A stretch of 64,000 bases of DNA from Pyropia haitanensis (taxonomy: Eukaryota > Rhodophyta > Bangiophyceae > Bangiales > Bangiaceae), in contig SDUX01000010.1 of the NCBI GenBank assembly GCA_008729055.1, forward strand, positions 2,433,090-2,497,089, in the 5' to 3' direction. Shown one piece after another: positions 3,349 to 53,603 of the stretch; position 1 is the stretch's first letter, and every line of letters begins with the position of its first letter. The notes beneath the pieces were generated by a model. It was not told the origin of the DNA. It ran no database searches and worked only from the letters and a program-made list of their open reading frames with translations. The translations under genes were made by a program, and so were the position numbers.

Positions 3349-5500
3349 TCACGTCGTGCCCAACAGCTTGGGGTGGCTCACAAACTTGCGCCCATTCTTG
3401 AGCACTAAATAGCCCGCCCCACCCGCGGCGCCCAGAAACGCGACCGCGAGCCCGACGCGCACGTACCAGCGCCCCCCATAGACCGCGCCGGTCGCGGCGA
3501 GCGCGACGCACACCGCCACCGCCGGCAACAGCGCCTTGTCCTTGGCCGCCAGCTTGCGCGCCCGCTCCTCGGCGGTCTCGTCCGTCGGCGACCGCGCGTC
3601 GGCCTTGCGCGCCGACACGACGCCCGCCCACACGTCGAGCGCGTCCTGCAGGCCCCCGTCGCTAAAGTTGTTGGCCACGTACCGCCGCGCGCTGCTCAGG
3701 CCGTCCTTGGCCGCGCCCACCTTGGACCGCTTGCCCGTCCGCGTGTAGTCGGTCTTGAGGGCGGGGGAGCCCGCGTACACGCGCGACATTTCGTCCGCGT
3801 TGTCCGCCCACAGCGTCTGGAAGACAGTCGCAAACGACGGCGCGCCGCGGGGGCCCACCGCCGCCCGGTCTGTCGCGGTGCCGCCCGCCGGCAGCACCCC
3901 AAATGCGCGGAGCACGTCGTCCGCGACGGTGGCGGCCAGCGCACACTGCACCACGTTGGTGCGGTCCAGCGAGTCGACGCAGTTGGTCCGCACGACGCCC
4001 GTCTGGGACTTGATCAGCCGCCCCGCCCGCAGGCGGCACACCCCAGCCGCCTCCACATCTCGCCGGATGGACGCCAGCAGCGCGCCCACCCGGTCGTACT
4101 TCATCCCCGCGCATTCTGTGTGAAAGTCCCACGCCAGGTACCGCACACTGGGGGGTACCCCTGACGTGACGCCCGCAGACAGGATCGACGCCAGCTCCCG
4201 GCCGAGCACCGCCTCGGGGCCCGTCGCGTCAATGAGGGACACGGCCGTCACCGACCCGTACGTGTCGGTCAGCTTTTTAAAGTGCCGCGCCGCAGCGGTC
4301 GTCGAGTGCGACGGCGCAGTCGTGCCGGTCATCGGGACGGTGCCGTCCGCGGCCGCGGCGGCCGCGCCGCCCACCGGCTCGTGCTTGAGCACCGGCTTGG
4401 GCTTGAGCGACAGCGCCGCCGGCTGCGCCCACAAGAGGGGCATGCTCCCGCGGACCTGCACAAACGACGCGGCCGCGTCGGCGTGGCTCAGCAGCAGCTC
4501 CGTCTCAACAAAGTTCGCCACCTCCCCCTGCATGTCCGCCCCGCGGACGGTGAGGCGGCGGCCCGGGCGGTCCGCGGCGCGGCGGGAGAGGACGGCCAGC
4601 CGTACGCTCTTGCCCGCCACAATCGCCGAGCCGACGCCAACATAGCCGAGGACCAGCGGGAGCACCCAGTCGACCAGCCCCATCCGCACCACGTCCGTCG
4701 ACACGTGCCGGTTCCACACAAACCGCATGTCCGCCCGCGTCAGCGACGGCAGTGCGGGCGCCACGGTGCCGCCACTGGTGGTGCTTCGCGCCTGCAGGTG
4801 GCGGGTCATGTCAAAGTCAAAGGAGAAGTAGCAGGTGCCCAGCGTGAGCACCGTGTCCAGCGCCTTTTTGGCAGCCGCCTCGGCTTTCTTGTCTGCCTTG
4901 GAGTAGCGCGTCTTGTTGGGAGGGACCGCCAGCGTCGGCGCCAGCACGGAGATGGCCTCCAGCTGAGCTGCCCGGTAGACCGTCTGCTCCATGATATGGC
5001 CGGCCACTTCCCGCTTCCGAACCACAATTAGGTAGCTGGGGGGGGAGGCGCGTCCAGAAAACAGCGGCTCAGCGAGAGGCACGAGGAAAGCGGACGAACA
5101 GCGGAGCTCGGGGCAGACAACATAGCGCAAAGCAAAGTAAAAGGGCGCGCGTGAGCCAAGTGCCCATCAGGGCCCAGCGGCGTGGTGTAGTGAACTGCGA
5201 GAGGAATCCAACAGAAAAGGAGGCGCGCGAGCGCAGTGGGGCAGGAGATACGGCCGCAACGCGCGCCAGGCAGCAGCCAGCATACCGGTCAATGTACGAG
5301 TTGGCAATGCCAACCAGCCCGTACACAATCTCATCCGACGTGGCTTTGCTCAGCGCCGCCACCTCCAGTCGCTCCCGCAGTGACACCTCGCACGACGTGC
5401 GGTCAATGAAGAGCACCTGCCGCACTTGCAGCGTCGAGTCGGCGGGCTCCAGCGTCATCCACCGTGGGGACATCCGCAGGCGGTACCGCTCAAACGACAT
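3349..5500 (-). CDS. SAC1: SAC1-type phosphoinositide phosphatase, two exons
   Basis: Predicted membrane-bound lipid phosphatase that dephosphorylates phosphatidylinositol monophosphates, chiefly PI4P, at the ER/Golgi. Exon 1 (5500-5286) starts MSFERYRLRMSP; exon 2 runs 5035-3349; the spliced protein is 633 residues, close to the roughly 590 of animal and yeast SAC1. The catalytic Cx5R(T) signature is present as CVDSLDRTN, preceded by VRTN. YFSFDFDMTRHLQ and the FVWNRH block are also typical of the Sac domain. Near the C-terminus two hydrophobic helices (LLPAVAVCVALAATGAV and VGLAVAFLGAAGGAGYLVL) match the double membrane anchor of ER SAC1. The exon junction reads SYIDRYLIVVRKREVAG, matching the conserved N-terminal strand of the family. 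No inactivating change seen. This is one of the best-supported genes here. Confidence 0.9.
5036..5285 (-). other. Intron of SAC1
   Basis: Donor GTATGC at 5285 and acceptor CCCCCCCAG ending at 5036; 250 bases, phase 2. Joining the flanks restores CGC (Arg) and a continuous SAC1 N-terminus. Confidence 0.85.
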
Positions 5501-6805
5501 GATGCCGGGCACCCGCGGGGGGGAACCCCGCCACAGTGTGGCGTTGGTCGAGCAGAAACGGCGCGGGGGGGGGAGGGTGGGGGGGGGGACAGGGGCAAGG
5601 CGGGCGCGGGGAGACGGCCACCCACACGCCACTGCGTCCGCGGCGGCCGACTGCAACGGTGCCCCGCGGGGCATACCACAGCCCGCGTGACAGCTGCGCA
5701 GTGCCTGCTAAACCGTCTCAAAAAAAAACTGCTTTTTCGGTTGCGGGGCCCCTTGCGGGCTTGCGTCGGATCTTGCTTTCACGCAAGCCAGTCTGCGGGA
5801 CAAGCAAGATTTTTGTGCGGATTCTGCTTGCGTCCGCAAGTCTGTCATTCTTGCGCGGCCCTTTGTGAAAATCTCCCACGCCGTGACTGTCAAGAACGGT
5901 CGGAGTGTACCCAATCAGAGGCCGGGACGGAACAGGTGTTCATAGCCTTTGGCCGTCTTGGCTACCTGGACCAGCGCAGAGTTCTCGCTCTTCCGCTGCT
6001 ACTGCAGCTGCTCGTTTACCTGCGCCAGCACCTCAGTGCAGCCGCACACCTCAAGGCGGAATATCACCACCACCATGCCGCAGGCCGCCAGGGTCCGGCT
6101 TCTACGCCTCAGTGGATACTATTTCCATGGCGAGACCTACCGTCGAGAGCGAGGGGGAAGCAGAGGCGAGCTGAGGGAAAGGGACGGCGAAAGAGGGAGC
6201 TAGTATCGGCTGAAGCGAAGTTGACGGCGGGCACCGTCCCCGCGCCGCGCTACTGTTTCCAGTTGCAACAGGCCGCAGTGTCTGTCGCTCAGCGGCTCCC
6301 AGGAAAAGCCGTCTTCACTACGACGCCACGGACGAGAACCGTCGATGGACCAACACCCACTGATGTAAATCAAAAACCAAAAAATCGGGAAAAAGCAGGG
6401 CTCAGTACTGCGTCACACGAACGGTGCGTGTCTGCGAAAGCCCCTAAAAAAGCTTTCTCGATCAGGACGTCTTGAGGCTGATGGGGGGCTTGAATATTGA
6501 TCATGTGACGCGGCCTCTACGCTTGTCTCACGTCGGGATTGGGATTGGGAACGTGTCGTGCGACAGTCCGGTGTGTCCACGCTGGCTCAACTCCCGAACG
6601 AGGTCCTGCGGAGGCCTGGTCGCTTTTTCCCACTTCTCGGTGTGCCTCTGTGCGCTGGCCAACACCCGCCGCGGGCCCCCCACGATGGATAGTGGCGGTC
6701 AGTAGAAGCTGGCCTCCCAACCCGCGATCCATCACGTCCCCGCCTCCTTGCTGTCTTGTGCACTTGTCGAAACCCTCTCCCGCTCCGTCCCCTCCTGTCG
6801 TGCTG
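5501..6805. other. Spacer between divergent genes SAC1 and the DUF3598-like gene
   Basis: Less GC-rich than its surroundings, with several A-rich patches (near 5719-5727 and 6366-6392) and a perfect palindrome CTTGCGTCCGCAAG around 5828-5841. It must hold the promoters of both flanking genes, which diverge from it. Short open frames are present on both strands, none recognisable. No TATA box convinced me. Confidence 0.4.
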
Positions 6806-8155
6806 ATGGGCGCCCCCACACCGAGCTTGTCCGTGCCGGGCGTGGCTGGCCGCCACCCGCTCCCCGCTTTTGCCGTAGCCGCCCCCTCGGCGCGGCCGAC
6901 GGCGGCCCCCCCCCGCACGCGCCCCCGCGTCGGCGTGCCGGCCGACCGTCTCCGCCGCCGGCCGGCGCGGGCGGTCGGCCGCCGCGCCGCCGCACCGGCG
7001 GCGCTGGCCATGAGCGACGGCGGCGGCGGTGGCGGCGGCGGCGGCGGCGACGGCGGCGGCGGCGGTGGCAGCGTCAAGGGTGCGTCGGCCGCGGCACCGC
7101 GGGTGCTCCCGCCACACCTGACCGCGCCCGCACCGCCGACGGCGGTGGCGGTCACCCAAGGCGCCCTGCACGACTGGAGGCACCCGACGCTCCGCCGCGA
7201 CGGCCGCTTCTACGGCTTTGTCGGCGAGTGGGGCTCGTTTGGGCCGCCAGGCGAGCCGCGGCGGGAGCTGTCCGCCGCCGCCGGCACGCGCACGCGGCTG
7301 ACCCTCCGCCGCGGCGCGCGGGTGTGGGCGCACCCGCCGGCGGGGCGCGCCACCGAGCTGCTCCACATCAACCTCTCGTCGACCGAGCCGGCGGTGGGCG
7401 TGGCGGCCACCCTCCGCGACGTGGACGGGCTGTACGAAAAGCGGTGGGTGGAGTCCACCCCCGCCGAGCCCGCCGCGGCCGTGCTGCCGTCGGCGCCGGG
7501 CGCGGTCGAGTCGCTCTTTTCCGCCACTGGCGGCGCGGTGTGGGGCCTCCTCGGCGGGCCGACCGACGCCGGCGGGGTGTCCTACTATGAGGTGTTTCTC
7601 CGTGGCGACGCGGCGGCGGGCTGGTCGGTGGTCCTCGCGTGGAACGAGGGCGCGCCGCACCCGGCGCTCGTGTCGTACATCCGCGAGGCGCCCGTCGGCG
7701 GCTTGGAGGGCGTCGACGGGGAGGCGGTTGAGCTGCCGGCGGTGCCGCCCGCGACGCCGCCGCTGCCGGTGGCGTCGTGGGTGGGCGGCTACCCGGGGCC
7801 GACCGAGGCGGATGCCGGCGCCGGCACCGCGACGGTGATGGCGGTGGTGGGCGGTGACGGCGGCGACGCCGGCCGGGTGATGTCGTGGACGGTGGAGGGG
7901 GTGCGCTGGACGCCCGTCGGCGGCAGCCGCGCCGGCGACGCCGCCGCGGACCGGCTGGTGGCGCTCGAGGATGGCCTGTACCTGTCGGTGATGGCCGACG
8001 CGCGCGCGGGGGGGGTGATCGAGTTTGGGTCGGCGTCGCCGCCGCGGCCGGGGCAGGCCCGCCAGCGGATGCTGGTGGTGGTGGAGCCGGGCGCGGTGGT
8101 CAGCCGGGTTGTCCACGAGATGTACCCACCTCCGGGGGGGGGGGCGGCGGCGTGA
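6806..8155 (+). CDS. DUF3598-like (lipocalin-like) protein, probably plastid-targeted, copy A
   Basis: 449 residues. The N-terminus from the ATG at 6806 is rich in Ala/Pro/Arg with HPLPAFAVAAPSARP, like a red-algal plastid transit peptide. A poly-Gly linker (about residues 70-90) precedes the conserved part. The conserved core resembles the cyanobacterial/plastid DUF3598 family of two lipocalin-like barrels: DGRFYGFVGEWGSFGPPGE early, YYEVFLRGD followed by LVSYIREAP in the middle, and LEDGLYLSVMADARAGGVIE near the end. That assignment is by eye and moderate. The start is chosen because the convergent copy at 8683-10294 has a matching APFPAF segment near its own start. An upstream in-frame start exists, but its protein looks non-coding. 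Function unknown; a tetrapyrrole- or lipid-binding role is only a guess from the fold. Confidence 0.7.
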   Translation: MGAPTPSLSVPGVAGRHPLPAFAVAAPSARPTAAPPRTRPRVGVPADRLRRRPARAVGRRAAAPAALAMSDGGGGGGGGGGDGGGGGGSVKGASAAAPRVLPPHLTAPAPPTAVAVTQGALHDWRHPTLRRDGRFYGFVGEWGSFGPPGEPRRELSAAAGTRTRLTLRRGARVWAHPPAGRATELLHINLSSTEPAVGVAATLRDVDGLYEKRWVESTPAEPAAAVLPSAPGAVESLFSATGGAVWGLLGGPTDAGGVSYYEVFLRGDAAAGWSVVLAWNEGAPHPALVSYIREAPVGGLEGVDGEAVELPAVPPATPPLPVASWVGGYPGPTEADAGAGTATVMAVVGGDGGDAGRVMSWTVEGVRWTPVGGSRAGDAAADRLVALEDGLYLSVMADARAGGVIEFGSASPPRPGQARQRMLVVVEPGAVVSRVVHEMYPPPGGGAAA

Positions 8156-8682
8156 CCACGTCAACAGGTGCGGGGGGGTGGGGGGGGGGGGGGGGGGGGG
8201 GGGGACGTTGGCAATGGGCCGGCGCGATGTGAGAGGCTTCCCTGTCGCCCTTTGTGCCCTGGGTGCGGGTGCCCACGGACTGCGGGCGTGACCTCCCCTT
8301 GACGGGGTAGTGTATCAGAGGGGCAGCGAGCGAACGGCGGGGCGCTGGTGCAGAGACGCGCGCCGGTGCTGGGGCGCACGGACGCGGCCGCGCTTTGGTG
8401 GGGTCTAGGAGGAAACAAACAGAAGGCGTCGTGAGTGTACGCAGGCGCGTCCAACGGGCAACGGCAAAAGTGCTAACGTTTAGGGGGACGGCGGCAGCCT
8501 CCCGGCCGCGTCGCGCACGCTGCGCCAGACCGTATCCAAGCTGGCACCAGGAGAGGAGCGGGCCGCCGCGTGCACGGGCCGAGCACAGGGGGCGTGACGG
8601 CGGCGTGAGCCGTCCCGCCGTGTGCCCGCCCGCGGCGGGAGGGCACCCCCACACCGGCGGCGCGGGCGGCCGCGACGGCGCG
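8156..8682. other. Spacer between convergent paralogues, with long G-tract
   Basis: Shared 3' region of the two convergent genes. It contains interrupted G-tracts at about 8169-8204, which could form G-quadruplexes on the plus strand. No open frame of interest. Confidence 0.5.
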
Positions 8683-9029
8683 TCACCCCCCCCCCCCCCC
8701 CCCCCCCCCGGCGGCGGGTACACCTCGTGCACGACCCGGTCCACCGCCCCCCCCCGCGACAGCACGACGAGCAGCCGCTGGCGCCCCCCCCCCCCCCACG
8801 GCGGCGGCGTGGCGCGGCCAAACTCGATGACCCCCCCCGCCCGCGCGTCCGCCACCGCCACCAGGTACAGGCCGTCCTCGAGCGCCACCGCCCGCGTCGC
8901 GCCGGCGGCGACGCCGCCGCCGGCGGGCGTCCACCGCACGCCGTCGACCGTCCACGAGACCAGCTGGCGGCCACCACCCCCGCCGCCGCTGCTGCTACCG
9001 CTGCTGCCGCCGCCGCCGCCGCCGCCGCT

Positions 9030-9060
<31 letters not shown>

Positions 9061-9974
9061 GCGCCGTCGCCATCACCGCCGCTGGCAACACCCTCCCCAC
9101 GCCACCCCCCTTCCACCCACGCCGACACCGTCGCGGTGCCGACGCCCGCGTCTGCCTCGGCCGGCCCCGGGTACCCCCCCCCCCCCCCCACGCCTCGACC
9201 GGCACCGGCGGCGCGGCCGGCGGCAGCGGCGGCAGCTCCACCGACCGCCCCTCGTCCGTCACGCCCGCCCACCCGTCCACCCGCGCCTCACGGATGAGGG
9301 AGCGGAGCGCCGGCGCCGGCGCGCCCGCCGGCCACGCCACCGACGCGGACGCGCACGCCGCGGCGTCGGCGCGGAGGAAGAGCTCCAGGAACGTCCACCC
9401 CGGCGGGACCACCCCGCGCCGTGGGCCGGCGGGCGGCGCCACCGCCGCAGACGCGTCGGCGGCGGTCGGCCCGTCTGGGACGGCCCACACCCCCCCCCCC
9501 GGCCCCGCGAAAAACGCCGCGTCCGCCCCCACCCCCGGCGACACGACCGGCGCGGCGCTGCCGACGCCAAACGCCGACGGCCAGCTCTTTTGGGCGAGCC
9601 CGTCGGCGCCCCGCCGCACCGCCGCGTCGCCCGTCACCGACACCCCCGCGGGGGTGTACAGGTTGACCTGCACGCCGGTCGTCGCGGGCGGTGGCGCGCA
9701 CGACCAGAGGCGCGCGCCGCCGCCGACGCGGCCGCGCACCGCCGTCGCCGCCGCGGCGGCGAGGGGGGTGCCGGGCGCGCCGCCGGGGGGGCCGTAGTAG
9801 CCCCACTCGCCGGCGAGGCCGTACCAGCGGCCGTCGGGGCGGAGCGTCGGGTGGAGCCACGTGTGGTGCGTGCCGCGCGTGACGGGCGTGGCGGCCGGGG
9901 GAGGGGGGGCCGTCAGGTGGGGGGGGAGCGCCCGCCGCGCCGCCGCGCCGCTGTCGACGCCGGCGTCGCCGGCG

Positions 9975-10012
<38 letters not shown>

Positions 10013-10294
10013 TTGGTCGCCGACATCACCGGGTGGGGCGACGGCGGCCGTGGGAGCGGTGACCCCCGCCACGGCTCGCCGCTGCCCACCCCCCATCAGA
10101 GGCGCCCGGCGGCGACCAAGGGAGGGCGACAGCCGCTCGCCGCGCCGCCGCCACGCCGCCACGGGAGCGATCTGTGGCTGGCGCAAAGGCACGGGGGCGG
10201 CAACAAAGGCGGGGAAGGGGGCAGCCGCCGCCGCCGCCGTCGCCGCCGCCGTCGTCGCCGTCGCCGCCGACGCTCGGCCGCTGGCAGTCACCAT
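8683..10294 (-). CDS. DUF3598-like (lipocalin-like) protein, copy B, frameshifted at a C-run
   Basis: Inverted paralogue of the gene at 6806-8155. Start ATG at 10294 with a transit-like leader (APFPAFVAAPVPLRQPQ), then DGRWYGLAGEWGYYGPPGG, TFLELFLRADAAA and LRSLIREARVDG, all aligning with copy A. At the 16-base C-run 9174-9189 the first frame ends in poly-Gly, and the next conserved block (YPGPAEADAGVGTATVS) resumes in another frame. It then runs through LEDGLYLVAVADARAGG to VVHEVYPPPGG. The end is set at the TGA (8685-8683) next to a second C-run (8686-8709), by analogy with copy A, which stops just after its PPPGGG. An insert rich in GD repeats (about 9030-9075) is not in copy A. It is either a real gene with miscounted homopolymers or a recent pseudogene; the conserved residues on both sides of the break favour the former. 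Confidence 0.6.
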
Positions 10295-12653: not shown

Positions 12654-14420
12654 ATGGAGGTCACGGCGGCACCCCCTCCCCGGCGGCGCTACCGCGGACG
12701 GCCAGGTCGCCGGCGGCTGCTGCTGACGGCAACCGCCGCGGCCGCCGCGGCGGTCGCCGCCGTGACGTTAACCACCGCGGCGCCCGCGCGGCTGTCGCCC
12801 GGCGTGCGCGCCGACACCAACTCGCCGTGGAACTACACTGGCACGACGGGCCCCGCGTACTGGCACACGCTGGACAATACGTTTGCCAAGTGCGGCACGG
12901 GCGAGCAGCAGTCGCCCATCAACGTGGTGCCGACGGTACCCGTCGACCCGAGCGTCACCCTCTTCTCGCTCGTCCAGCCCGGCACGGCGTCCTTTACGGC
13001 TCGGACGAGCATCAACAACGTGCCGCTCGAGTGCGCGTCGGACACGTGCGGCAAGCTCCAGTGGCAGTTTGCAACGTACAGCCTCGTCAACGTGCACGCG
13101 CACGCGCCGGCGGAGCACCACGTCAATGGGCGGACCTTCCCGCTGGAGCTCCACTTTGTGCACATCGCCCCCGGGGTGCCGCACGACCGCATCGCGGTCG
13201 TGTCGGTGCTCTTTGAGCTGTCGTCCACGCCCAACCTGCTCCTCACCCGCCTCCTCGACGCGCAGGGCGACGCGCACGGCGGCGCGCCCAACAGTACGGT
13301 CGGCATCACGGGCGTCGAGTGGGGCACCGTCGAGCGGCCCGAGTCGGGCTTTTGCCAGTGGGGCGGCTCCCTGACGACGCCGCCGTGCTCCGAGGAGCTC
13401 GCCTGGTTCATGGAGATGAGCGCCCAGCCGGTAACGCAGGCGCAGGTGGACCGCTTCCGCGAGTACCGGACGTTGGAGACGGGCCTCGACGAGGTTGGCA
13501 ACAACCGGCCGCTGCAGCCGGCCAACGGGCGCAAGATCACCTGCTACGGGCCGGTGGGGAACCTTGCCGGCGCCGCGCCGCCGGCGGGGCCGGCGCCGGC
13601 GCCGCCGCCCCACGGCGGCGGCTCGCCGCCGCCGCCGCCGCCGGCGGCCAGCTCGCCGCCGCCCGCGCCGCCGGCACACGGCGGCGGCGGCGGCGGCGGC
13701 GGCGGCACGCCGCCGCCGGCCGCGCCTCAGCCGCCGGCGGGCGGCGGCGGCTCGGGCGCCGGCGCCGAGCCGTCGGCCGAAGTGGTGGTCAACCCAACGT
13801 GCTTCCCCGGCACGTCCACCGTCTGGCGGCCCGACGGCACCGCGGTGCGGCTCGCCGACGTGGCCACGGGCACGACGGTGGTGACGGGCGCCGCGCCGGC
13901 CGCCGCGTCGCGGCTCTTTATGTGGAGCCACCGGCTGCGGACCGGCGGCCACCCGTTTGTGCGGCTGACGACCGCGTCGGGGGGGGCGCTCACCGCGTCA
14001 GCGGGGCACCTCATCTACGCGTCGGGCGCGCGGGTGCCCGCCGGCACGGTGCGGGTCGGGGATACGCTCGAGCGGGTGCCGCCGCCGCGCGCCGCCAGGG
14101 ACGGTCGCGGCGGCGGCAACGCCACCGCCGCCGCCGCCACGTCCACCATTGCCGACCCCGTCGTGGCGGTCACGCCCGTGACCGCCACCGGCCTGTACGC
14201 GCCGCACGTCCTCGACGGCGTCGACATTGTCGTCGACGGGTTCCGGGTGAGCACGCTGACGACCGCCGTGCCGGCGGCGGCGGCGGAGCGGCTGCTCGCG
14301 CCGCTCGCGTGGGCCTACCGCCGCGGCTGGGGGAGCGTCCGCGTGTTTCACGGCGACGGCGGGCGCGCCGCCGAGGCGGTGCGCGCCGCCGTCGCGGCAG
14401 TGTCGGCGGTGTGGGCGTGA
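12654..14420 (+). CDS. Secreted alpha-carbonic anhydrase fused to a Hedgehog-type Hint (Hog) domain
   Basis: 588 residues, one exon. Residues about 1-50: basic start then a long hydrophobic segment (RRRLLLTATAAAAAAVAAV), a signal peptide or anchor. Residues about 55-300: alpha-carbonic anhydrase, hydrating CO2. It has QSPIN (86-90), the zinc ligands His148 and His150 (VHAHAPAEHH) and His167 (ELHFVH), Glu154, and LTTPPCSE with Thr241/Thr242. Residues about 308-379: Pro/Gly/Ala linker. Residues 383-550: Hint domain of Hedgehog type, starting at the catalytic Cys383 in NPTCFPGTSTV, with LTASAGHLIYAS (His452, the TxxH position) and GLYAPHVLDGVDIVVDGF, close to the GxYAP motif of Hedgehog C-domains. 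By family knowledge Cys383 should perform an N-S acyl shift and release or esterify the enzyme domain. Whether it does so here is inference. Confidence 0.9.
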   Translation: MEVTAAPPPRRRYRGRPGRRRLLLTATAAAAAAVAAVTLTTAAPARLSPGVRADTNSPWNYTGTTGPAYWHTLDNTFAKCGTGEQQSPINVVPTVPVDPSVTLFSLVQPGTASFTARTSINNVPLECASDTCGKLQWQFATYSLVNVHAHAPAEHHVNGRTFPLELHFVHIAPGVPHDRIAVVSVLFELSSTPNLLLTRLLDAQGDAHGGAPNSTVGITGVEWGTVERPESGFCQWGGSLTTPPCSEELAWFMEMSAQPVTQAQVDRFREYRTLETGLDEVGNNRPLQPANGRKITCYGPVGNLAGAAPPAGPAPAPPPHGGGSPPPPPPAASSPPPAPPAHGGGGGGGGGTPPPAAPQPPAGGGGSGAGAEPSAEVVVNPTCFPGTSTVWRPDGTAVRLADVATGTTVVTGAAPAAASRLFMWSHRLRTGGHPFVRLTTASGGALTASAGHLIYASGARVPAGTVRVGDTLERVPPPRAARDGRGGGNATAAAATSTIADPVVAVTPVTATGLYAPHVLDGVDIVVDGFRVSTLTTAVPAAAAERLLAPLAWAYRRGWGSVRVFHGDGGRAAEAVRAAVAAVSAVWA

Positions 14421-17801: not shown

Positions 17802-18329
17802 GCATCGTCATCTGGTAAGGACGCCCTTGTCTGACGCCATGGGGGCGCAGGGTGGAGGGGGCGGCGCGCCCAGCCAAGGTGCAGGTGTCGTAGGCGAGTT
17901 TGAAACGGGGTGGCATTGGCGGGGAGGAGGACTCTCCGCGACTGGTCAGGAAGACAAACTATTTATGTTTCTTGCTACCTCGCCCTTGCCAGCAGCTGCG
18001 GACAGTCAACCAACAAGCTCTATGTTTGCTCTCGTCCAAGCGGCTGCAGGGGCAAATCACCAACCAGCCAATGGCTGCACAGGCATGAAACACGTGGCGT
18101 GCTTCTGTCTGTAATGCAGGCTCATCTCGATCAGCTTGCTGCAAGCACAGTGTACCAGCTGGCCTGCAGGTGGCACCCGGCCCTCTTCACGCCGCGCAGT
18201 GTCCCTCTTCGGTGGCCACAGCGTCTACCCCCCGCGGCTGTCGCCCTTCTTGGTCAACCCGACGCCGCCAGCGCTGCGACACTGATCCCACCCCCCCCCC
18301 CCCCCGCTGTTTCTCGGCGGGCGCCCAGC
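17802..18329. other. Spacer before the aspartic protease gene
   Basis: Moderate GC with a C-run at 18291-18305 just upstream of the protease ATG. The two genes are on the same strand, so this should hold the protease promoter. No TATA box stands out. Confidence 0.4.
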
Positions 18330-20341
18330 ATGGGCCGCTCCCCCCCCCTCCCCTCCCGCCGTCGACGCGCGCGCGGCGGCCGCCCGTGGCGACGCGTCGC
18401 GACGGCAGCGGCGGCGGGCGTGGCCGCGGCCGCCGCCGTCGCGGCGTCGTGCGTGAGCACCGGGGCGGCAGCCGCCGCCGCCGCCGCCGGCGCGGCGTCA
18501 CCGCCGCCACCGCCACCCCGCGGGGTACCCCTCGGGGCGGTGCCCCTGTCTGCCGCCCGCGCGTTTGCCCTCTCCCGGCGCCCGTGGGCGCGGGGGCTGG
18601 TGCCCCCGCCGCCACCGCAACGGCTCGTCGTGCTCCGCGTTGGCAGCGACGACGGCGGCGGCAGTGACGGCGGCGGCGGGGCGCCAGTGGACGTGTCGCC
18701 GCGGGGGGGCGCCCCGCCACCCTTGCGCGTGACGGTCGTCGACGCGTACGCCGGCGGCGGCGGTGGCCGCCGCGCTGCCAACCGCCACGCGGCTGACGCG
18801 GACGCCGGAGCGTCATTGCCGTCGGCACCCCTGCGCGGGGATGTGGTGCTGATGGGTGAGTACTTCCTGGCCCTCACCGTCGGCACCCCGCCGCGGGACG
18901 TGCACGTGCAGGTCGACACGGGGAGCTCGACGCTGGCGCTGCCCCTCGAGGCGTGCCGCACGTGCCGCGCCGACGCGCGGCGGCTGGGCGTGGCGCCGCT
19001 GCCGCCGCCACCCGCGGTGGCGCCCCCCGCGGGCATTGTCGGCGGCGGCGGCGGCGGCTACACGGCGGCGGCCGAGGCGGCGGCGTCGGCAACAACGGCC
19101 GGGTCCGCCTCGTCACTGGTGCCGTGTGGCTCTCCCGCGTGTGGCGCTGACACCTGCGACGCGTACCGCGTGTGCCGCACGTGCTCGGTGAGCCGCCGCG
19201 CCTGCTGCGCGCCCGACGCGCCCGGCGCGTGCGCCTTCTTCCTCCGCTACGCGGACGAGTCGGGCGCGCGCGGCGCGCTCGTCACCGCCCGTGTAGCGGT
19301 CGCCAACGTGTCGACGACGCTGACGTTTGGGGGCATCCTGGCCGACACGCCCGACTTTGAGCGCCCCCTCGTCGACGGCATCCTCGGCCTCGCGTACGCG
19401 CCGCTCGCGTGCAACCCAACGTGTGTGCGGCCGCTCGTCGACGCGCTCGTCGCGGACGGCCGCCTCGCGGCCGACGCGTTTGGCATCTGCACGGGGCGGG
19501 CGGGCGGGACGCTGACGCTCGGCGGCGCCGACGAGCGCCAGTACGAGGGGGACCTGCAGTACGTGCCGCTCGCGCCGCGCCGCCGCCACGCGCCGCGCCT
19601 CTTTTACGACGTTGCCGTGACGGGCGTGACCGTCGGCGGCGCCTCGGTGGCGGTGCCGGACCTGGCCACCGCGATTGTGGACTCGGGCACGACGGTGGTG
19701 GTGCTGGCGCCGGCAGCGTTTGGGGCGCTCAAGGCGCACTTCCAGACCCACTACTGCCACGTGCCCGGCCTGTGTCCGCCGGGTGGCCGCCCGCGGGGTG
19801 GCCACCCCGAGGCCACCTGGTTCCAGCCGGGCTACTGCGCGACGCTCACCGACGCGGACGTGGCGGCGCTGCCGGCGCTGACGTTCCACCTGGGCGGCGT
19901 GCCGCTTTCGCTCGAGCCGTCCGAGTACATGCTGCGCTTTGAGGCGGGCCGTCTCGTGTATCGCTGCCTCGGCATCACGTACCTGGACGGATTGCAGGAG
20001 CAGGAGGCACAGGCCATCCTCGGCAACGTGCTGCTCATCAAGTACTACACGCTGTACGACCGGGCGGGCGACCGCGTCGGGTTTGCGCCCAGCACCGGAT
20101 GCGTGCGCGACGGCCAGTCGCTGGCAAAGCTCCTCGCCGACGGCGCGGGCGCGGACGACGGCGATAGTGGCGGCGGGGCAGCGGGGGGGGGGGGGGGGAC
20201 CCGCGGGGGGGGCACATCTCGTACGGGTGGGTGCTGGTCCTGGTTGGAGGGGGGGCGCTCGCCGCCAAGCTCCTCGCGGATTGCATGGAGCGGCGGCGGC
20301 AGCGGAGTGAGTACGAGCCGATTGGGGAGCCGGCCACGTGA
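18330..20341 (+). CDS. Membrane-anchored pepsin-family (A1) aspartic protease, frameshifted near the C-terminus
   Basis: Basic N-terminus plus hydrophobic segment (VATAAAAGVAAAAAVAASC), a signal sequence, then a Gly-rich pro-region. The protease begins near GEYFLALTVGTPPRDVHVQV. The first catalytic Asp is Asp196 in VDTGSSTLALP; the second is Asp451 in AIVDSGTTVVVLAP. Between them is a Cys-rich stretch (VPCGSPACGADTCDAYRVC and CCAPDAPGAC), like the nepenthesin-type insert of plant proteases and apicomplexan plasmepsin V/ASP5. ILGNVLLIKYYTLYDRAGDRVGFA is the usual A1 C-terminal strand. After the G-runs 20183-20198 and 20205-20212 the sensible frame changes: HISYGWVLVLVGGGALAAK gives a membrane helix followed by a basic tail ending GEPAT at 20341. 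That makes it a type I membrane protease of the secretory pathway. The alternative frame lacks any such feature. Confidence 0.85.
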
Positions 20342-20831
20342 CCGGGGGCACGAGGGCAACAGGCTGGGGCGGGGGTGGGAGAGGGCACGGGGGTGGGCAG
20401 CATGGGTTTGGGCGACGGCCAGACTGGAGGCGGAGAGAGCGGGGCCCCACAAGACAGCGGTGCGGACTCCGTGCTGGGGGCGCGGGAGGAGGAGCAAGCA
20501 AGACCAAGCATGTGTCCGAGGGACACGGCGCACCAACGCTACTTGACAGCGACCGAACGCCTTTCCACCCTGGACGCGGTCCGCACGGCAGGGGACAACG
20601 ACGCGGGGACATATGCAGAGTTGTCGAGCAGTTTAAAAAAAAAAAAAAGAACAGGAGCTCAACAGCTCAACGGGAACACACGCACGTGTGCCATCACAAC
20701 GACCGCCCCCTGCAGTCGACATTCACCCACCCCCCCAGCGCCAGCCCCTTTCCTCACCCCGCAGCCACCACGCACGACTGCGTGAGCAGCCCGCCCCCCC
20801 AATCCAGCCCCAGTCCAGCCGCTACGCGCGG
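20342..20831. other. Shared 3' spacer between the protease and VIPP1 genes
   Basis: Convergent ends. Contains a 14-base A-run at about 20636-20649, and little else. Confidence 0.5.
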
Positions 20832-21761
20832 TCACTGGAAGTCTCTGCGGAGCTTGTCGAGCTCGGCCTCCACCGCCTTGTCCTTGGGCCTCGACGGGAG
20901 GATAAACGGGGTCTGCTCCGCGCCCAGCTGGCCCTTCATGGCCGCCAGCTCCTTGTCCACGTCGTTCCCCTCGAGGGCCTTGAACTTGGACTCGAGGGAC
21001 ACGTCCGCAGAGCCCCCAATGGCCATCTCGGCGGCCACGTCCGCAGACGTCTCCAGCTCCTCCACCTTGACCTTCATCCGCTCAAACGCTTCGAGCGCAG
21101 AGCTGTCGCCCACGCCCGAGATCATCTCGTTGACCTGCTGGGACGTCTTGGCCGTCTTGGCCCGCGCGATAAACTGGTCCTTCTTGGTCCGCGCCTCATT
21201 AATCTTGCTATCCAGGGCGTTCATCGAGGCGTACAGCTTGTTCACATTCTCCTTCATGCCCGCCAGCTGCGAGTCGAGGCTCTTGACCATGTCCTGCTGG
21301 GCCTTGCGGCGGGTGAGGGCCTCCCGCGCTAGGCCTTCCTCCCCCTTTTGCAGCGCCAGCTGCGCGCGCTTGTACCATTCGTCCGCCGTGGTGGCCGCCA
21401 AGTCCCGCTGCCGCTCCAGCCGCTTAGTCGACGCAGACACCTCCGCGTACGCCTGGCGCACCTTGACCAGGTCGCCTTGCATGTCCGTAACCGCCTGCGT
21501 GATAATCTTCTCGGGGTCCTCCACGCTCGACACTGCCGAGTTCACACTGGCGCGAAAAATCCGCAGGAGGCGGTCAAAGATGTTCATGGACACACGTCCA
21601 CGGCGGGGGGTGGCCGCAGTGGCGGCGGGGGGCGGGGGGAGAGGGCGCGCCACCGTCAACGCGGCGCCGGCCAGGGAGGAGCGGCCGCCACAGACGGCAC
21701 CGCGCCACGCAGTGGCACCCGATCCGACGGCCCCCACAAAGGCCGCAGCAGCAGGCGCCAT
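20832..21761 (-). CDS. VIPP1: VIPP1/IM30, plastid PspA-family membrane-remodelling protein
   Basis: 309 residues. ESCRT-III-like coiled-coil protein needed for thylakoid membrane biogenesis and repair. The start at 21761 gives a plastid transit peptide (MAPAAAAFVGAVGSG, with the Phe near the start typical of red-algal transit peptides). The mature part begins MNIFDRLLRIFRASVNSAV, the membrane-binding amphipathic helix of the family, then EDPEKIITQAVTDMQGDLVKVRQAYAEV. Long charged helices follow (KSLDSQLAGMKENVNKLY), then SLESKFKALEGNDVDKELAAM and a C-terminal extension with VEAELDKLRRDF, the part that separates VIPP1 from bacterial PspA. The in-frame codon at 21815 is GTG, so the ATG at 21761 is preferred. 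No intron. Next gene upstream on the same strand is the thylakoid TL29-like gene. Confidence 0.95.
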   Translation of the reverse strand: MAPAAAAFVGAVGSGATAWRGAVCGGRSSLAGAALTVARPLPPPPAATAATPRRGRVSMNIFDRLLRIFRASVNSAVSSVEDPEKIITQAVTDMQGDLVKVRQAYAEVSASTKRLERQRDLAATTADEWYKRAQLALQKGEEGLAREALTRRKAQQDMVKSLDSQLAGMKENVNKLYASMNALDSKINEARTKKDQFIARAKTAKTSQQVNEMISGVGDSSALEAFERMKVKVEELETSADVAAEMAIGGSADVSLESKFKALEGNDVDKELAAMKGQLGAEQTPFILPSRPKDKAVEAELDKLRRDFQ

Positions 21762-23031
21762 GGCGACCAGCAGGAGAACCACAAACGGCGAAACAGGGGG
21801 AACGAGGGAGAGCACGGGTGGGTGCGGGGAAGAGCTCGGGGACAGCGACTACCACAGACAAGAGCAGGGACTGGACCGAGTCAAGTCGGCGGCAATGGCG
21901 CAGACCGCGGCAGGGACGAGCGATGGCGAGGGGAGGGGCGGGGGTTCCGACGCGCAGGCAGAGGTGTGGGCCAGGGATAGGGGCAGCAGAAGATGTGGGA
22001 CACTCCGTGCTGCAAACACGCCCACAACCACAACCGCGCAATCTGGCCGCGTCTGTACGCTCGAGCCAGCGTGCAATCGTGGGTCAAGCAAACTTGAACA
22101 CAGCCGGCGTAGGCCACCTCGGACCTGCCGTGAGTGAGGACCTTCCACGTGCGCCCAGAGGGACCCCGCCCCACACTGCCAGCAACGCGCATCGTCACCC
22201 TGGATTGGTTGAATCGGACTTGCGGCTGCGCTCTGTCCACGTGGCAATGGTGCCCCCCTCCTGCTCAGCTCGGAGCGCGCTGGAGGGAGCTGCTGCTCGC
22301 CACGGGGCCTGATCCAGCTCGAGACGACCGTGATCGCTACAGGATCCCACTGCTGTAAGCACCGTTCGGATGGCGGCTCGTGGAGCACCTGTCTGGGAGC
22401 AGGCGATGTCGGGATGATGTTCCACCGGAGCGTTCCACCCGCAGCACCCGCCGGCAGTCGCGGCCGAGTGCGGGCGGGGCCGTCACGCCGCGACCAGGAG
22501 CGGGCGGCGCCTTCACGCCGCGGCCCTGCGTGTCTACAAAGCTGATAGTGGGGGTCCCGAGCTGGGGTAGCGTAGGGTGGGGAGCGCGTGGGCGATAGGC
22601 GCATGATGCGATACTGACTGAAGCGACCGTAGGAACGACAGCAGTCTGTGGGAGGCATGGGCACGTCGGTGTGGTTCAATAGCGGGACGGTGGGGGGGGC
22701 GGACGGGCCACCCGTCGACTCGCAGAGGCCACGCCCCCGCAGATGACAATCGGAGGCAGCGTATGCGTGGCAACGCAGTTTGCGTCCAGGCGTTCCGCGA
22801 GCTGCCACACGCGGTGTTGGTAGGTACATCCCAATTCGCGCCGCACTGGTCGACCACGGCGCGACCGCCCGCCCGTCCGCCCCCAACCGTCGAGGGTGTC
22901 CCTCGGCCCGTTCGGACACCCGCATCCGCCCCAGCCAATCGACCCTCCCGCGCATTCAACCGTCCCCCCACTACATCCTTTCATTCTTCCGCCTCCCCCC
23001 CCGTGCCATCCATCCAGCCGATGAGCTCCGC
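21762..23031. other. Spacer upstream of VIPP1
   Basis: Mixed-composition sequence, less GC-extreme than most of the window, that should hold the VIPP1 promoter and the 3' region of the TL29-like gene. Two similar 'GGGCGG..C(G/T)TCACGCCGCG' pieces lie at about 22473-22525. No conserved coding sequence. Confidence 0.45.
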
Positions 23032-24297
23032 TCAGCTGCCCAGCAGCTTGACGCTCTCAAAGCGGGTGCCCAGCAGCGTCATCCGCTCAAACGCGTTGGC
23101 AAAGTCATTCGAAAACGCCTTGTTGTTGCCCGCGTACTTTTCGAGCGCCGCCCGGCACGCCGGGTCCTCGAGCACCACCCGGTCCCGCGTGGAGAGGGTG
23201 CCCTTCTTGCCCGCCTTCTCCGCCGCGAGCAGCGCCTTGAGGTACCCATTCCCAAACTTGGTCTTGCCGCCCAGCGTCAGCGTCGACACGTTGCTGTTGA
23301 CGAGGACGGCGCCCTTGCGCTTCTTCACGCCCACCGCGCCCACGTCCTCATTGCCGGTGGGCCCGCCGCCGTACGTCATCGCGTCGACCTCCTCCTCCTC
23401 CGCATCCCCCGCGAGCGCCGCGTTGGCCTCCTCCCGCGACGCGCCAATGTCGCCGAGCACGCCCACCGCCCCGTGCCACAGCACCAGCTCCTTGGCGCCG
23501 CCAATGCCCGACGCGTTCAGCGCGGCCACCAGCTCCTCGGCGGGCGCGTCGTCCGCCCACAGGGCCGACGACGACGGCGGGTCGGGCTCGGTCGCGTCCT
23601 CCCGGCCCAGCTGGATGACAATCCGCGGGCCCGCCGCCACCTCCACCGCCACCGCGCCGGCAAACGCGAAAAAGTCCGCCACCGACACGCCGTCCTTGCC
23701 CGCCGCGGCGAGCGCGCCAATCGCCGACACGGCGTCCGCGACGCCCGCGTTTTGGGGGCGCCCCAGCTCGAGCCGCAGCGACCCGTTGAGGCCGCCCGCC
23801 CCCGTCGCCGTATCGTACGTGAGCGTATCGTGGAGGCCGACGAGGACGGCGGAGCTGAGGAGCGACGGCCGCGTCGCGAGCAGGTTGCGCAGGTTCGCCT
23901 TGGTCCGGTTGATGGCCGACACCTTCATCTCCTTGTCGCCGTACCGGTCCGTGTCCACGTCCACCGTCGCCGCCGCGGGGGGGGGCGCGGGGAGCAACCC
24001 CACCGCCGCCGCCGCCGTCACGCCCGCCGCGGCGGCCAAGACGGAGCGGCGGCTGACGGCGGCGGCGGGGGCGGCAGCCCCCCCACCCGCGGCGGCAGGG
24101 GCGGCGGGCGACGGCGCCGCCGCCCCCGACGGCGCCGCCGCCGCACACGTCACCGCCGCGACCGATCGGGTGTGGGCGGCGGCGGCGCCGCCACGGACAG
24201 CGGCGGCACGCCGCCACGCCACAAAGCGCCCACCGCCACACAGGGGGGGCGGGGAGGGCGTAAAGGCGGCGCCGGCAGCGGCGGCGGCGGCGGCCAT
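23032..24297 (-). CDS. TL29-like thylakoid-lumen ascorbate-peroxidase homologue with degenerate active site
   Basis: 421 residues. From the ATG at 24297 the protein begins with an Ala-rich plastid transit peptide (AGAAFTPSPPPLCGGG). A second, Tat-type signal follows: twin arginine in SRRSVLAAAAGVTAAAAVGL ending in APPPAAATVD, predicting transfer to the thylakoid lumen. The rest follows the class I haem-peroxidase fold: SSAVLVGLHDTLTYD lines up with the distal helix of ascorbate peroxidase, GGLNGSLRLELGRPQN and VSVADFFAFAGAVAVEVAAGP are close to that family. By eye, the distal Arg and Trp are replaced (only His kept). The region of the proximal His reads KELVLWHGAVGVLG, with no clear equivalent. 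The same loss is known for plant TL29/APX4, which does not bind haem. Structural or PSII-associated role inferred from that homologue. Confidence 0.8.
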   Translation of the reverse strand: MAAAAAAAGAAFTPSPPPLCGGGRFVAWRRAAAVRGGAAAAHTRSVAAVTCAAAAPSGAAAPSPAAPAAAGGGAAAPAAAVSRRSVLAAAAGVTAAAAVGLLPAPPPAAATVDVDTDRYGDKEMKVSAINRTKANLRNLLATRPSLLSSAVLVGLHDTLTYDTATGAGGLNGSLRLELGRPQNAGVADAVSAIGALAAAGKDGVSVADFFAFAGAVAVEVAAGPRIVIQLGREDATEPDPPSSSALWADDAPAEELVAALNASGIGGAKELVLWHGAVGVLGDIGASREEANAALAGDAEEEEVDAMTYGGGPTGNEDVGAVGVKKRKGAVLVNSNVSTLTLGGKTKFGNGYLKALLAAEKAGKKGTLSTRDRVVLEDPACRAALEKYAGNNKAFSNDFANAFERMTLLGTRFESVKLLGS

Positions 24298-24755
24298 GGC
24301 GGCGGCGGCGGCGGCGGCGCGCGACCGCCGACGCAGGCACGACAGGGGTGGCAAACACGAGCGAGGAGGTGCGGGTGGCAAGCACGGAGCAAGGGACTCG
24401 GAGCAGGGGGGGGATGAGGGGGAGAGCGGGCGGCGTCCCAATGGCGGCGACAGGATGGGGGGCGGACGCCGTGGTGGGGGGGGGGGGCGGGCGGGGCGGG
24501 GCGCGGACCCCAGCGATGACGATGGCGCACAGGCGCCGCCGCCTCCGCTGCCAGTCGCCAGGCGGGCGGCAGCCGCCCGGATCTCCGCGGCCCCATCCAA
24601 TCTCACGCGCGCATCTCATTCCCGGTGGAGGCAGACGATGGACCTAAATACTTCTCTTTTTTTTTTTGGTGCTCTCGATCGGCACCAAGCGCAACGGCGG
24701 TGGCGCGCGCGCACCCACACGCGTGCGCCGCGCGGTTGCTCCTCCCCCCCCGCCG
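24298..24755. other. Spacer between the TL29-like gene and the KA1-like gene
   Basis: GC-rich with a T-run at about 24657-24667. It should contain the promoter of the TL29-like gene and the 3' end of the next minus-strand gene. Confidence 0.4.
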
Positions 24756-35955: not shown

Positions 35956-36458
35956 CCGATTCCTATATCTACCCTCGCGCTCATCGCCTTGACTTGTATG
36001 TTGCCGGGTCTGTACCCAGCAGTGTCGCGTGCTGTTGTCGGCAGTACCCGCTCTGCTGCTCTCGTGGCGCGGACCTTGCTGCTTTACTCGAGTCACCGCG
36101 GTGCTGCCCTCGCTAGTACCGTCGTGCTCTGGTTCCTTCTATTGGTCGGAGGGGCATCTCGTCGAGCTGCGTGTGTGTCGGCCGGTGGTGGTAGAGGCGG
36201 CAGCGGTGGCGGTATCGGCGGCGTTGGCGCGGCGGCGGCGCCAGCGGACTCGGCCGTGTGTGTGGTCTTGACTTTGTGAGCGTGTGAACGGGGGGACTGC
36301 TGGGTGGTCTGTGACGTCCCGTCGGAGGGGGGTCGGCGTGCGTCTCGACGGCGGTCTGTCAGCGTTCCGGCGGTTGCCCGCGCACGTACGTGCCGTAGGC
36401 GAACCAGTCCTCAGCCGACGGTCGGTCGTTCCCCCCCTGCCCGTGCCTTACGACCTTG

Positions 36459-39400
36459 ATGGAGCGCAGCGGAGAGCGGGGTGGCGCGAACGAGCGTGGG
36501 CGTGACATCATGGACCTGTCGCCTGCCGCGGGGCCTGCTGCTGCCGACGCTGCGGGGCCTGCTGCCACCGCCGCCGCGGGGCCTAGTGCCACCGCCGCTG
36601 CGGCAGTCACCGGTGGGGCGGACGATATGGCGGTTGACGCGGGCGATACGGTGGCCGTGGCGGGCGGTGGCGGCCGCCCTGGCGGGCTCCGCCACGACAA
36701 TGACAAGGACGACGTGGCGGACATTTTGGTGGTGCCGACGGCGGACGAGCTGCTGTGCGGGATGCCGCCGTACCTGCCCCTCCCGCCGACGTCTGAGGCG
36801 GGGGGCGGTGCTGCGACCGCCACGGAGGGGGCGTCGGCGGCAGCTGCGGCGGCGACGGACACCGCCGGCCGCCTCGTTGACAGCCTCTTCCGGCTGGCGC
36901 GGGAGGACCTGGTCCGGCCCCTGCGGGAGGCCATCCTCGCGTACCGCGCGTCGGCGGTAGCCGCCGAGGCGCGCGCGGCCGGCGCGGCCGCCCCCGCGGC
37001 TGGCAGCCGCGCCGCGGCGGCGGTGGCGCCCGCCGACCTGGACGTCTACCGCCGCGCCCGCGTCGACGGCGTGGCGATGCACCCCGCCCACGTGGTGCGG
37101 GTGCGCGTCGCGTTTGACGCCCCCGCGGGCGCCCGCGGCGATGGGGGTCCCGCGGCGACCCGGTTCTGGGCCGCCGCCCCGCAGCTGCTGCGGGTGGGCA
37201 CCCTCGCGATCCTCTGCCGCGGCCTCCTCACCCCGACGCCGCTGCTGCTGTTTGGCGTTATCGTCGAGCGAGACGTGGACCCGGCCCTGCGGCAGGAGGA
37301 CCCCCACGCTCCCGCCGCCGGGCGTTTCTCCGGCCCCGCTGTGGAGATGATGCCCTGCCGTCACTGGTTGGGTGATTGGCTCTCCGCGGCGGCAGCAGGC
37401 AGCCCCGCCGACGCGGGCGGGTCGACCGCCCCCACCGAGCTGCTGTTGCTGCACGCCCCGCGGATGGGCTACGAAGTGGTCGCCCCCGTGCTGCGGGCGC
37501 TGGCGTCGATGGCGCCGCGCCTGCCCTTTGCGGACATCCTCGCCGCGCCGCCCGGCGCGTGCGCGCCGCCGCGGCCGCCGGCCTATCTGCTGGACGCGCC
37601 CGCGGCGGCGCGGGCGCTCGACCTCAACGACCTCGTGGACGACCCCGCCCGCCGCTCGCCCGCCCTGTCCGCGGTGGACGTGCTCGCGCCTGGCGGCGAC
37701 GATGCGTGGCCGGCGGCGGAGCTGGCCCGCCGCACGTCGCTGGACGCGGCGCAGGTGCGCGCGCTGCGCGCCGCGCTGTCCACGTCGGTGGTGCTGCTGC
37801 GGGGCGCGCCGGGGACGGGCAAGAGCTTCCTCTGTGTGCGGCTGGTGCAGCTGCTGGTGCAGCGGCACCGCCGCCTGCGCGCGGCGCGGGTGGGTGGGTC
37901 CCGCCGCAGCGCCGCGGCGGCGACTGGCGGCGGGGGCATCTTGGTCGTCTCGGCCACGGGCCACGGACTGGACCAGTTTTTGATCGGCCTGCTGGACCGG
38001 GGCGTGGACGGCGTCGTCCACGTGGGCGGCCCGTCATACCACCCGCGGCTGGCCGCGTGTAGCCTGCACGCGCAGGTGTACTGCGTCCTGTCACCGGGCG
38101 CCGCGCACGGCGAGTCCGCGGTCGCCCCGGGTGACCTCGCTTGGCAAGGCCAGCGGCTCGCCGCCGCGACGCAGCGGCTCCGCGACGCGGGCGTTGGGGA
38201 CCTGGCAGCGTACAACAAGGCGCTCATCTATTTTGCGCCCCTGCTCCAAGACCTGCACGACGAGCTGCACCGCCTGGGCGCGGGCGAGGACGCGACGTGG
38301 GACCTGTTTGACTCCTTTTTTTTCGAGACGTACCCGGCCCTGTTCCGCAGCATCGTCGAGGGCCCCTCGCCGGCGGGTGCGGCCGCCCTGCCCGTGGACA
38401 CAGCCGCCGGTGGGGTGGGGTCTGACGGCCGTGGGGGTGGCCACCGCAACGTCGGCGCGTCGGCCCAAGGAGGGACGGTGGCGCCCGGGGCGGCGCCGTC
38501 GGACGAGGACTGGTTCCGCACTTGGCAGCGGGGCGGCGGCGGCGGGCTGCCTGCCGCCGCGGGCGCGGCGCCCCAGCCGGCGACGGCGGCGGCATCGCCG
38601 GCCGCCGGCGGCACCGCCGGCGACCGCGTCGACGAGGACACGGACGAGGACTTTGAGCGGCTGTCGTACACGGCCGACGCGTGGTCTGTGCCGCCGCCGA
38701 TGCGGCGGCGGCTGCTGGCGCACTGGCTGCGCGGCGTGCTGCCCATCGTGGTGGAGTGCCTGTCGGCCAGTCACGCGGAGGTGCAGGAGATCTTGGCACG
38801 GGACCGCAACGAGGAGGCCAATGCGGCACTCGTCGTCCTGCGTGCAGCGTCGGTGGTGGGCGTGACGGCCCGCTCGGTCGCCGACATCCAGGCGCTCATC
38901 GCCGTCTGGGCGCCACAGGTGGTGGTGCTAGACGGCGAGGTGTCCGAAGCGCACTCGGTTGCCGTCCTCCACGGCGGCGTGCAGCAGCTAATCCTGACGG
39001 GCGACCCGGAGCGGCTGCGGCCCGCGTGCGCCGTGTACGACCTGAGCGTCGATAGCGGGCGGGGCTTCAACGTGGACGCGTCCCTCTTTGAGCGCCTCGC
39101 CGGTGTGAGCGGCTACGCCAACGCCCACGACTTGCGCACGCAGCGGCGGGCGCCGGTGGTCATTGCCGACCTGGTGCGCGCGACGCTGCATCCGGCGCTT
39201 GCGGACGCACCGTCCCTGCGCGACAACCCCGCCGCGGTGCCGGGGATGGGCATGAGCGTCTTCTTTTGGGAGCACAACGTGGCCGAGGTAGCGTGCCACG
39301 ACGGCGGGGACCTCAGCGGCTCTTCCGCGCGGGCCGTCTGCAGCCCCCACGAGGTGGGCATGGTCCTTGCGCTGACGCGGTACCTCCTCCTGCAAGGCGT

Positions 39401-47321: not shown

Positions 47322-47370
<49 letters not shown>

Positions 47371-47413
47371 GTCTGGCGGCGCCACCGCGTCCGCGCCAGC
47401 AGACGCCGTCGCA

Positions 47414-47445
<32 letters not shown>

Positions 47446-52547: not shown

Positions 52548-52579
<32 letters not shown>

Positions 52580-52787: not shown

Positions 52788-52849
<62 letters not shown>

Positions 52850-53554: not shown

Positions 53555-53603
<49 letters not shown>

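Follow-up and report, generated by a model that had tools for sequence, protein, structure and literature searches.

An alpha-carbonic anhydrase fused to a Hedgehog-type Hint domain in Pyropia haitanensis: a candidate for self-cleavage and sterol anchoring

A single gene of the red alga Pyropia haitanensis, located within the 64-kb window examined here (the whole stretch of 64,000 nucleotides), joins an alpha-carbonic anhydrase to a C-terminal Hint domain and a short tail, and this fusion is conserved in other species and at other loci of the same genome. By analogy with Hedgehog, we favor, with moderate confidence, the view that the gene encodes a Hog-type precursor of a probably secreted alpha-carbonic anhydrase, which would cut itself before Cys383, be passed to a sterol and be tied to the outer plasma membrane. 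Features of the gene, its neighbors and related loci are collected in Table 1.

Table 1. Features of the fusion gene, neighboring genes and related loci (window positions unless a contig is named)
Feature	Position	Strand	Basis or remark
Whole coding frame	12654..14420	+	uninterrupted; 588 residues and stop; GC3 0.94 over frame
N-terminal segment, Arg-rich then Ala/Val/Leu-rich, residues 1-44	12654..12785	+	putative signal peptide
Alpha-carbonic anhydrase domain, residues 66-297	12849..13544	+	PF00194, 94.4 bits; PDB 4c3t, E 1.1e-26
Presumed zinc ligands H148 (13095-13097), H150 (13101-13103), H167 (13152-13154)	within 13095..13154	+	alignments
Pro/Gly-rich linker, residues 301-382	13554..13799	+	least conserved part
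Cys383, predicted nucleophile; predicted cut Thr382/Cys383	13800..13802	+	Cys conserved across Hint rows
Hint fold, residues 383-540	13800..14273	+	
His426, position of Hedgehog general base Asp303	13929..13931	+	alignments
SxxH (S449, H452), position of Hedgehog TxxH (T326, H329)	13998..14009	+	alignments
Ser533-Thr534, motif J region, position of Hedgehog Cys400	14250..14255	+	alignment
Adduct-recognition-like tail, residues 541-588	14274..14417	+	model helices 541-559 and 571-587 with loop; identity in relatives
SacI-type phosphatase gene	3352-5166	-	Pfam
Aspartyl protease gene	17904-20543	+	Pfam
PspA/IM30 gene	20835-21848	-	Pfam
Peroxidase (PF00141) gene	23035-24615	-	Pfam; assigned to PF00141 level
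L014, anhydrase-Hint	C7:1029773		own genome
L057, anhydrase-Hint	C7:3325808-3327145		own genome
L032, imelysin (Peptidase_M75) repeat and Hint	C11:645250-647331		one 810-residue frame
Cluster of three copper type II monooxygenase-Hint frames	C4:2736686-2749865		includes L039
L039, copper type II monooxygenase and Hint			
L046, Kelch and Hint			
L047, Kelch and Hint			Hint below cut-off
L044, Kelch and Hint			Kelch below cut-off

Gene structure and neighborhood

The first-pass annotation of this DNA had described anhydrase, linker and Hint in that order in one uninterrupted frame, and this description holds: all 588 codons are open up to the stop, and both domains pass their Pfam cut-offs. GC3 is 0.927 for the signal segment together with the anhydrase and reaches 0.952 in the Hint part, and it drops in the same frame to 0.722 upstream and 0.715 downstream, so that the coding pattern fits the proposed ATG and stop; GC2 is 0.550 for the signal segment and anhydrase and 0.662 for the Hint part.

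The N-terminal segment has a mean Kyte-Doolittle value of 1.46 over residues 24-44, and a comparable stretch is present in those relatives that possess this end. We infer that residues 1-44 form a signal peptide and that the precursor is probably secreted, while plastid targeting by the Ala/Arg-rich N terminus is an alternative that may apply instead. The case for an extracellular placement consists of this signal-like segment and of six Cys common to all 12 fusion rows of the anhydrase alignment, as would be expected of a protein outside the cytosol.

The linker has a GC content of 93% over positions 13569-13788. Two protein records, P0003 and P0028, carry the sequence of the gene minus 175 or 280 linker bases, with a frameshift before the Hint, which could point to two separate transcripts or to an isoform dropping the Hint, the joint frame being genomic only or bypassed. 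We give this reading hardly any weight: GT-AG ends are absent from all of the 3 and 5 placements possible for the gaps, on which ground alternative splicing is rejected as their source, both records run on into the Hint DNA in another frame, and the joint frame stays open in relatives. The gaps look as expected of skipping between short repeats in 93% GC DNA and are read as likely template skipping in GC-rich repeats, although a Hint-less isoform may still be made.

Elsewhere in the window, two similar-looking helicase-like stretches lie at 36399-42606 (+) and 46435-54439 (-), the latter with Pfam matches to AAA_11, AAA_12, CCCH and an RZ zinc finger and the former to AAA_11 only. Convergent frames at 6509-8152 (+), which has no Pfam match, and 8480-10294 (-) look alike by eye. 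Class III peroxidases are reported to be absent from other red algae (PMC13353863).

The carbonic anhydrase half

Residues 66-297 match the Carb_anhydrase family (PF00194) with an E value of 1.1e-26 and 94.4 bits against a cut-off of 27, and the closest solved structures in a PDB sequence search are bacterial alpha-anhydrases, 4c3t being the first row. All three zinc-binding His reported by the first-pass annotation are in place in the alignments, as are E154 and T241. We take H148, H150 and H167 to be the zinc ligands, and T241 and E154 are presumably the Thr199/Glu106-type pair of human numbering. By sequence, the protein is an alpha-carbonic anhydrase with an intact zinc site, for which CO2 hydration is predicted. 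The position of the His64-type proton shuttle aligns with Pro124, and this Pro counts against a sterol-anchored working enzyme. Five single-domain anhydrases of the same genome (L009, L010, L011, L015 and L016) stop a few residues past the enzyme domain, which marks the Hint as an added part.

The Hint domain and its tail

The Hint profile search and the structure prediction that the first-pass annotation had proposed as checks both gave positive results. The Pfam Hint match covers residues 378-551 (E 5.8e-11; 42.8 bits versus a cut-off of 29.7). A model of the Hint plus tail alone is good, and its Hint matches the Hedgehog Hint in a Foldseek search, with the D303H mutant structure 6tyy as the first row. 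The full-length prediction is poor (pLDDT 56), with anhydrase-type chains only among its best 50 rows against the PDB, and a one-sequence search of the PDB with the Hint piece alone gave fly Hedgehog at nonsignificant values (6tyy, E 0.045; 1at0, E 0.75). The Hog part, placed earlier at residues 383-560, actually ends at residue 588.

C383, H426, S449 and H452 align with C258, D303, T326 and H329 of fly Hedgehog. Of the Hedgehog motif set read into the sequence at first, the order and the catalytic residues stand, but Ser-Thr replaces Cys400 in the TTAV motif and the residue preceding Cys383 is Thr382 rather than Gly. Ser, Thr or Asp at the motif J Cys position has been reported in moss and red algae (Burglin 2008, PMC2362128). 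The Cys nucleophile of the Hedgehog chemistry is likewise kept, but the base would be His426 and not Asp, a difference that had been missed; the same His is the mutant residue of 6tyy. In the fly Hint, the D303H swap is reported to preserve structure and activity and to widen the substrate range (PMC9163320); these data describe the fly domain and not the algal one, a point against the sterol reading.

The predicted nucleophile is retained in all 37 Hint rows of the genome and in all 13 anhydrase-Hint rows. His occupies the 426 position in all 36, and the 452 position in all 35, of the own-genome rows having a residue there, the 449 position is Ser in 15, Thr in 19 and Ala in 1 of 35 rows with a residue, and the C383, H426, S449 and H452 positions are all retained in the 13 anhydrase-Hint rows. 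Gly precedes the Cys in 1 of 37 own-genome rows, and the anhydrase-Hint rows have Thr, Val, Ala or Leu there. Self-cleavage is well supported by this conservation as a predicted activity.

Intein splicing relies on a C-terminal His-Asn motif and a C-extein nucleophile. An intein is ruled out here, as Ser-Thr stands at the His-Asn position and is followed by a 48-residue tail and the stop.

In the model, the tail forms two helices with a loop (pLDDT 89-92 in the first helix and 65-76 beyond; hydrophobic moments 0.43 and 0.39). The structure-search rows listed all cover the Hint, and none of them matches the tail. The sterol region of hSHH is described as a helix-loop-helix of 97 residues with an H-P-R motif in its first helix (PMC7906309), twice the 48 residues of the algal tail. 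By eye, Pro550 fits the Pro of this motif and no HWY motif is seen in the tail; Of 33 own-genome rows, 24 have this Pro and 25 have Arg at position 552, where the copy studied here has Ala. From model and sequence, we regard the tail as adduct-recognition-like and a putative sterol binder, and the Hint with its helix-loop-helix tail as a probable Hog-type domain with intact predicted catalytic residues.

Conservation and origin of the fusion

A protein search gave 20 matches, 8 of them with both PF00194 and PF01079, and a search with the Hint part gave 13 matches, 9 with both domains. The first-pass annotation had pointed to other Bangiophyceae as the place to look for the fusion, and it was found in two Pyropia vietnamensis proteins (P0002, 78% identical over 90% and marked partial by its source, and P0008) and in one of Porphyra umbilicalis (P0024, 380 residues, lacking its N-terminal part). 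P0024 is already named in UniRef for its anhydrase domain, and precomputed Pfam annotation lists its Hint, so the architecture is already public. A search with profile A3 (22 matches; 7,982 candidates scored) gave no further full anhydrase-Hint protein; none outside Bangiales was seen among its source-named matches, many matches being without a named source.

Within the genome itself, a family search gave at least 17 anhydrase matches, read as 14 genes, 3 of which continue into a Hint within one open frame: the gene studied here, L014 and L057. The other 11 (L009-L012, L015, L016, L053-L056 and one at C3:6904313) have no Hint match within 6 kb. An assembly chimera is ruled out by the same fusion in other species and at other loci, and a chance match in GC-rich DNA by the two curated cut-offs passed, the fold match and the conservation. 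The fusion is real and conserved, and chance or misassembly is very unlikely.

Identity to P. vietnamensis P0002 is 90% in the anhydrase, 52% in the linker, 80% in the Hint and 81% in the tail. Linker identity is 49% to P0004 and 43% to P0006; for P0005, P0007, P0008 and P0009, it is 16 to 21%, with 67 to 68% in the Hint and 61 to 67% in the tail. The Hint, remaining similar despite the drift of the linker, is under clear constraint. The tail, at 61 to 81% in the seven closest relatives, appears constrained among close relatives only: five farther rows (P0010, P0022, P0024, L014 and L057) have 51 to 64% in the Hint, 39 to 50% in the anhydrase and 27 to 45% in the tail, a drop that counts against sterol transfer.

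The zinc His are intact in 11 of 13 anhydrase-Hint rows. L057 has Ala-His-Gln at these positions, two zinc His being lost, with the Hint residues intact, and is likely a pseudo-anhydrase; P0024 shares the Gln at the third position and has no residues at the first two. From the alignments, the L057/P0024 branch seems to have lost the zinc site and kept the Hint residues.

The Hint could conceivably be inactive or never cut, persisting as a vestigial or binding domain while the anhydrase functions with both domains attached, and its modest score of 42.8 bits and the substitution of T326, D303 and C400 alike would suit this. We consider it very improbable, given that Cys, His, Ser/Thr and His are retained across paralogues, that the linker drifts while the Hint is constrained and that the copy with the broken zinc site retains all four Hint residues.

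The Hint tree has 46 rows; L040, L043, L047 and L048 were too partial for it, L051 yielded no row, and P0026 was excluded from both the tree and the Hint profile. In this tree, all 13 anhydrase-Hint rows cluster together, with support of 98/95 and in 98% of bootstrap trees. The anhydrase tree has 29 rows and omits P0024 as well as L053-L056, whose anhydrases are multi-domain or split; its 12 fusion rows likewise cluster together (88/89; 90%), and the program flagged long branches in it. A single fusion event with later duplication accounts for both trees. A single origin fits the sequences, although the weaker anhydrase tree leaves room for repeated fusion.

Hint domains across the genome

A family search gave at least 80 Hint matches in the genome, 2 of the 80 below the cut-off, which merge to about 76 places, some of which may be exons of one gene. 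Among 38 Hint places, 32 were scanned for partners with Pfam: 5 have a recognized partner, and 27 have the Hint alone, several with a common N-terminal part (by eye) of no Pfam match. Judged by position only, of 8 copper-monooxygenase places, 3 are in frame with a Hint on C4, 3 lie ≤1 kb upstream of a Hint in a different frame and 2 have none near; a second imelysin repeat, on C9, also has no Hint near. In the Hint loci L017-L051, the domain is often C-terminal and behind low-complexity linkers, and the catalytic Cys and His are kept in the rows examined.

The first-pass annotation had suggested a placement of the enzyme for carbon acquisition. Conservation of the fusion and of its catalytic residues bears out part of this idea, but the Hint occurs at about 76 places and beside several types of partner, and a sister copy combines a broken zinc site with an intact Hint, so that the Hint looks like a general C-terminal module and not like a device specific to carbon acquisition. 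Cyanidiales (Kelch-Hint; PMC9812998) and the diatom Pleurosigma (PMC12803021) are reported to have large Hint families too, and hence the expansion as such is not new. We offer tentatively, as a possibility still short of an even chance, that Hog serves Bangiales as a general sterol anchor at the C terminus, comparable to the GPI anchor, on dozens of secreted proteins, among them carbonic anhydrases, copper monooxygenases and an imelysin. On this view, eukaryotes would have had a machinery for protein sterylation earlier, the cholesterol tag of Hedgehog would be one use that animals make of it, and His would be the natural general base here.

Proposed mechanism and alternatives

In the reading that we favor, Cys383 would attack the carbonyl of Thr382 in the secretory pathway in an N-S acyl shift assisted by S449 and H452, and the tail would hold a sterol of the membrane, in all likelihood cholesterol, for attack on the thioester with His426 as general base. 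The Hint and tail would be released, leaving the anhydrase on a Pro/Gly stalk ending in a sterol ester and so held on the outside of the plasma membrane. In this position, it could supply the blade by converting bicarbonate and CO2 into each other for uptake or, alternatively, help to dissolve carbonate in the shell-boring phase.

The predominant sterol of red algae is reported to be cholesterol, with the annotated cholesterol pathway incomplete (PMC10817344). The genome has four matches to the ERG4/ERG24 sterol-reductase family (PF01222) and two to the Patched family (PF02460), which three archaeal controls match too. Sterol supply is plausible, and sterol or lipid anchoring is supported, by analogy, by the helix-loop-helix tail and the cholesterol-rich red algae. 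Thr before the Cys, Ser for T326, the lack of Cys400, the short tail without an evident HWY and Ala552 together weaken the case for an exact copy of animal cholesterolysis.

If the Hint cut before Cys383 and water resolved the thioester, a soluble anhydrase would be released into the wall or medium. The Hint residues would be equally intact, the replacement of Gly before the Cys and the short tail could weaken sterol transfer, and the P. yezoensis alpha-anhydrases CA5, CA9 and CA14 are reported to be extracellular in tobacco (PMC7423979). This outcome is nevertheless unlikely in our judgment, as the tail conserved in the seven closest relatives would be needless for hydrolysis alone.

Transfer of the anhydrase to a hydroxyl of a wall sugar, another lipid or an amine, giving a sortase-like wall anchor, we hold to be decidedly unlikely: we know of no precedent for a sugar acceptor among Hint proteins, and the helix-loop-helix tail resembles the membrane and sterol binder of hSHH. 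Such an acceptor would nonetheless agree with the many Hint places, several on different cargo, with a tail lacking a clear HWY motif and with the widened substrate range reported for a His base (PMC9163320). The nematode Hog tail, too, is reported to have been named the adduct recognition region because cholesterol addition is not clear there (PMC2362128). Attachment to a sterol is the reading we retain.

Comparison with known systems

The first-pass annotation knew of no described anhydrase-Hog fusion. No paper describing one was found among those listed from the open-licence PMC literature for anhydrase with Hint or hedgehog, or for hedgehog in Porphyra umbilicalis or Pyropia, but the architecture itself was, as noted above, already annotated. 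Carbonic anhydrase does not occur in the available text of PMC2362128 or of PMC9812998. The alpha-anhydrases of P. yezoensis are reported as an expanded family of 15 copies, some of which are located outside the cell and linked to the shell-boring phase (PMC7423979); they belong to the same enzyme family as the fusion but mostly have one CA domain, and in the available text of that source "hedgehog" does not occur and "hint" occurs once, in another sense.

Hog fusions are already known. Burglin (2008; PMC2362128) reported that Porphyra yezoensis and P. haitanensis have two Hog ORFs each, in which the motif J Cys is replaced. These and other non-Hedgehog Hog proteins of protists and algae resemble the present one in joining an N-terminal part to Hog, but the upstream region of the Porphyra pair is described as without a match elsewhere, whereas an anhydrase stands here. 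Distinct N-terminal domains are reported there only for GmGIN1 and Hoglet. The choanoflagellate Hoglet is likewise a Hog fused to an unrelated domain, one resembling cellulose-binding domains, so that its cargo is carbohydrate-binder-like and not an enzyme (PMC2362128). The Kelch-Hint proteins of Cyanidiales are also red algal and multi-copy, with a low-complexity linker to another domain, but their partner is Kelch and they are subtelomeric (PMC9812998, PMC13353863); their function is stated as unknown.

Hedgehog itself (fly Hh and human SHH) shares the C-terminal Hint and helix-loop-helix tail, the Cys nucleophile, the TxxH His, a filled base position and a secretion segment. Unlike Hedgehog, the algal protein carries a carbonic anhydrase as cargo and no Hedge signaling domain (no Hedge family match in Pfam at E up to 10), and it has His for Asp303, Ser for Thr326, Ser-Thr for Cys400, a shorter tail and Thr382 for the Gly before the catalytic Cys. 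Carbonic anhydrase is a new partner for a known module. The enzyme cargo can be assayed simply and quantitatively, and cholesterol is the main sterol of this algal group, which makes sterol tagging before Hedgehog directly testable. If the proposed mechanism is true, it is also an additional way for a lineage of crop seaweeds to place carbonic anhydrase externally.
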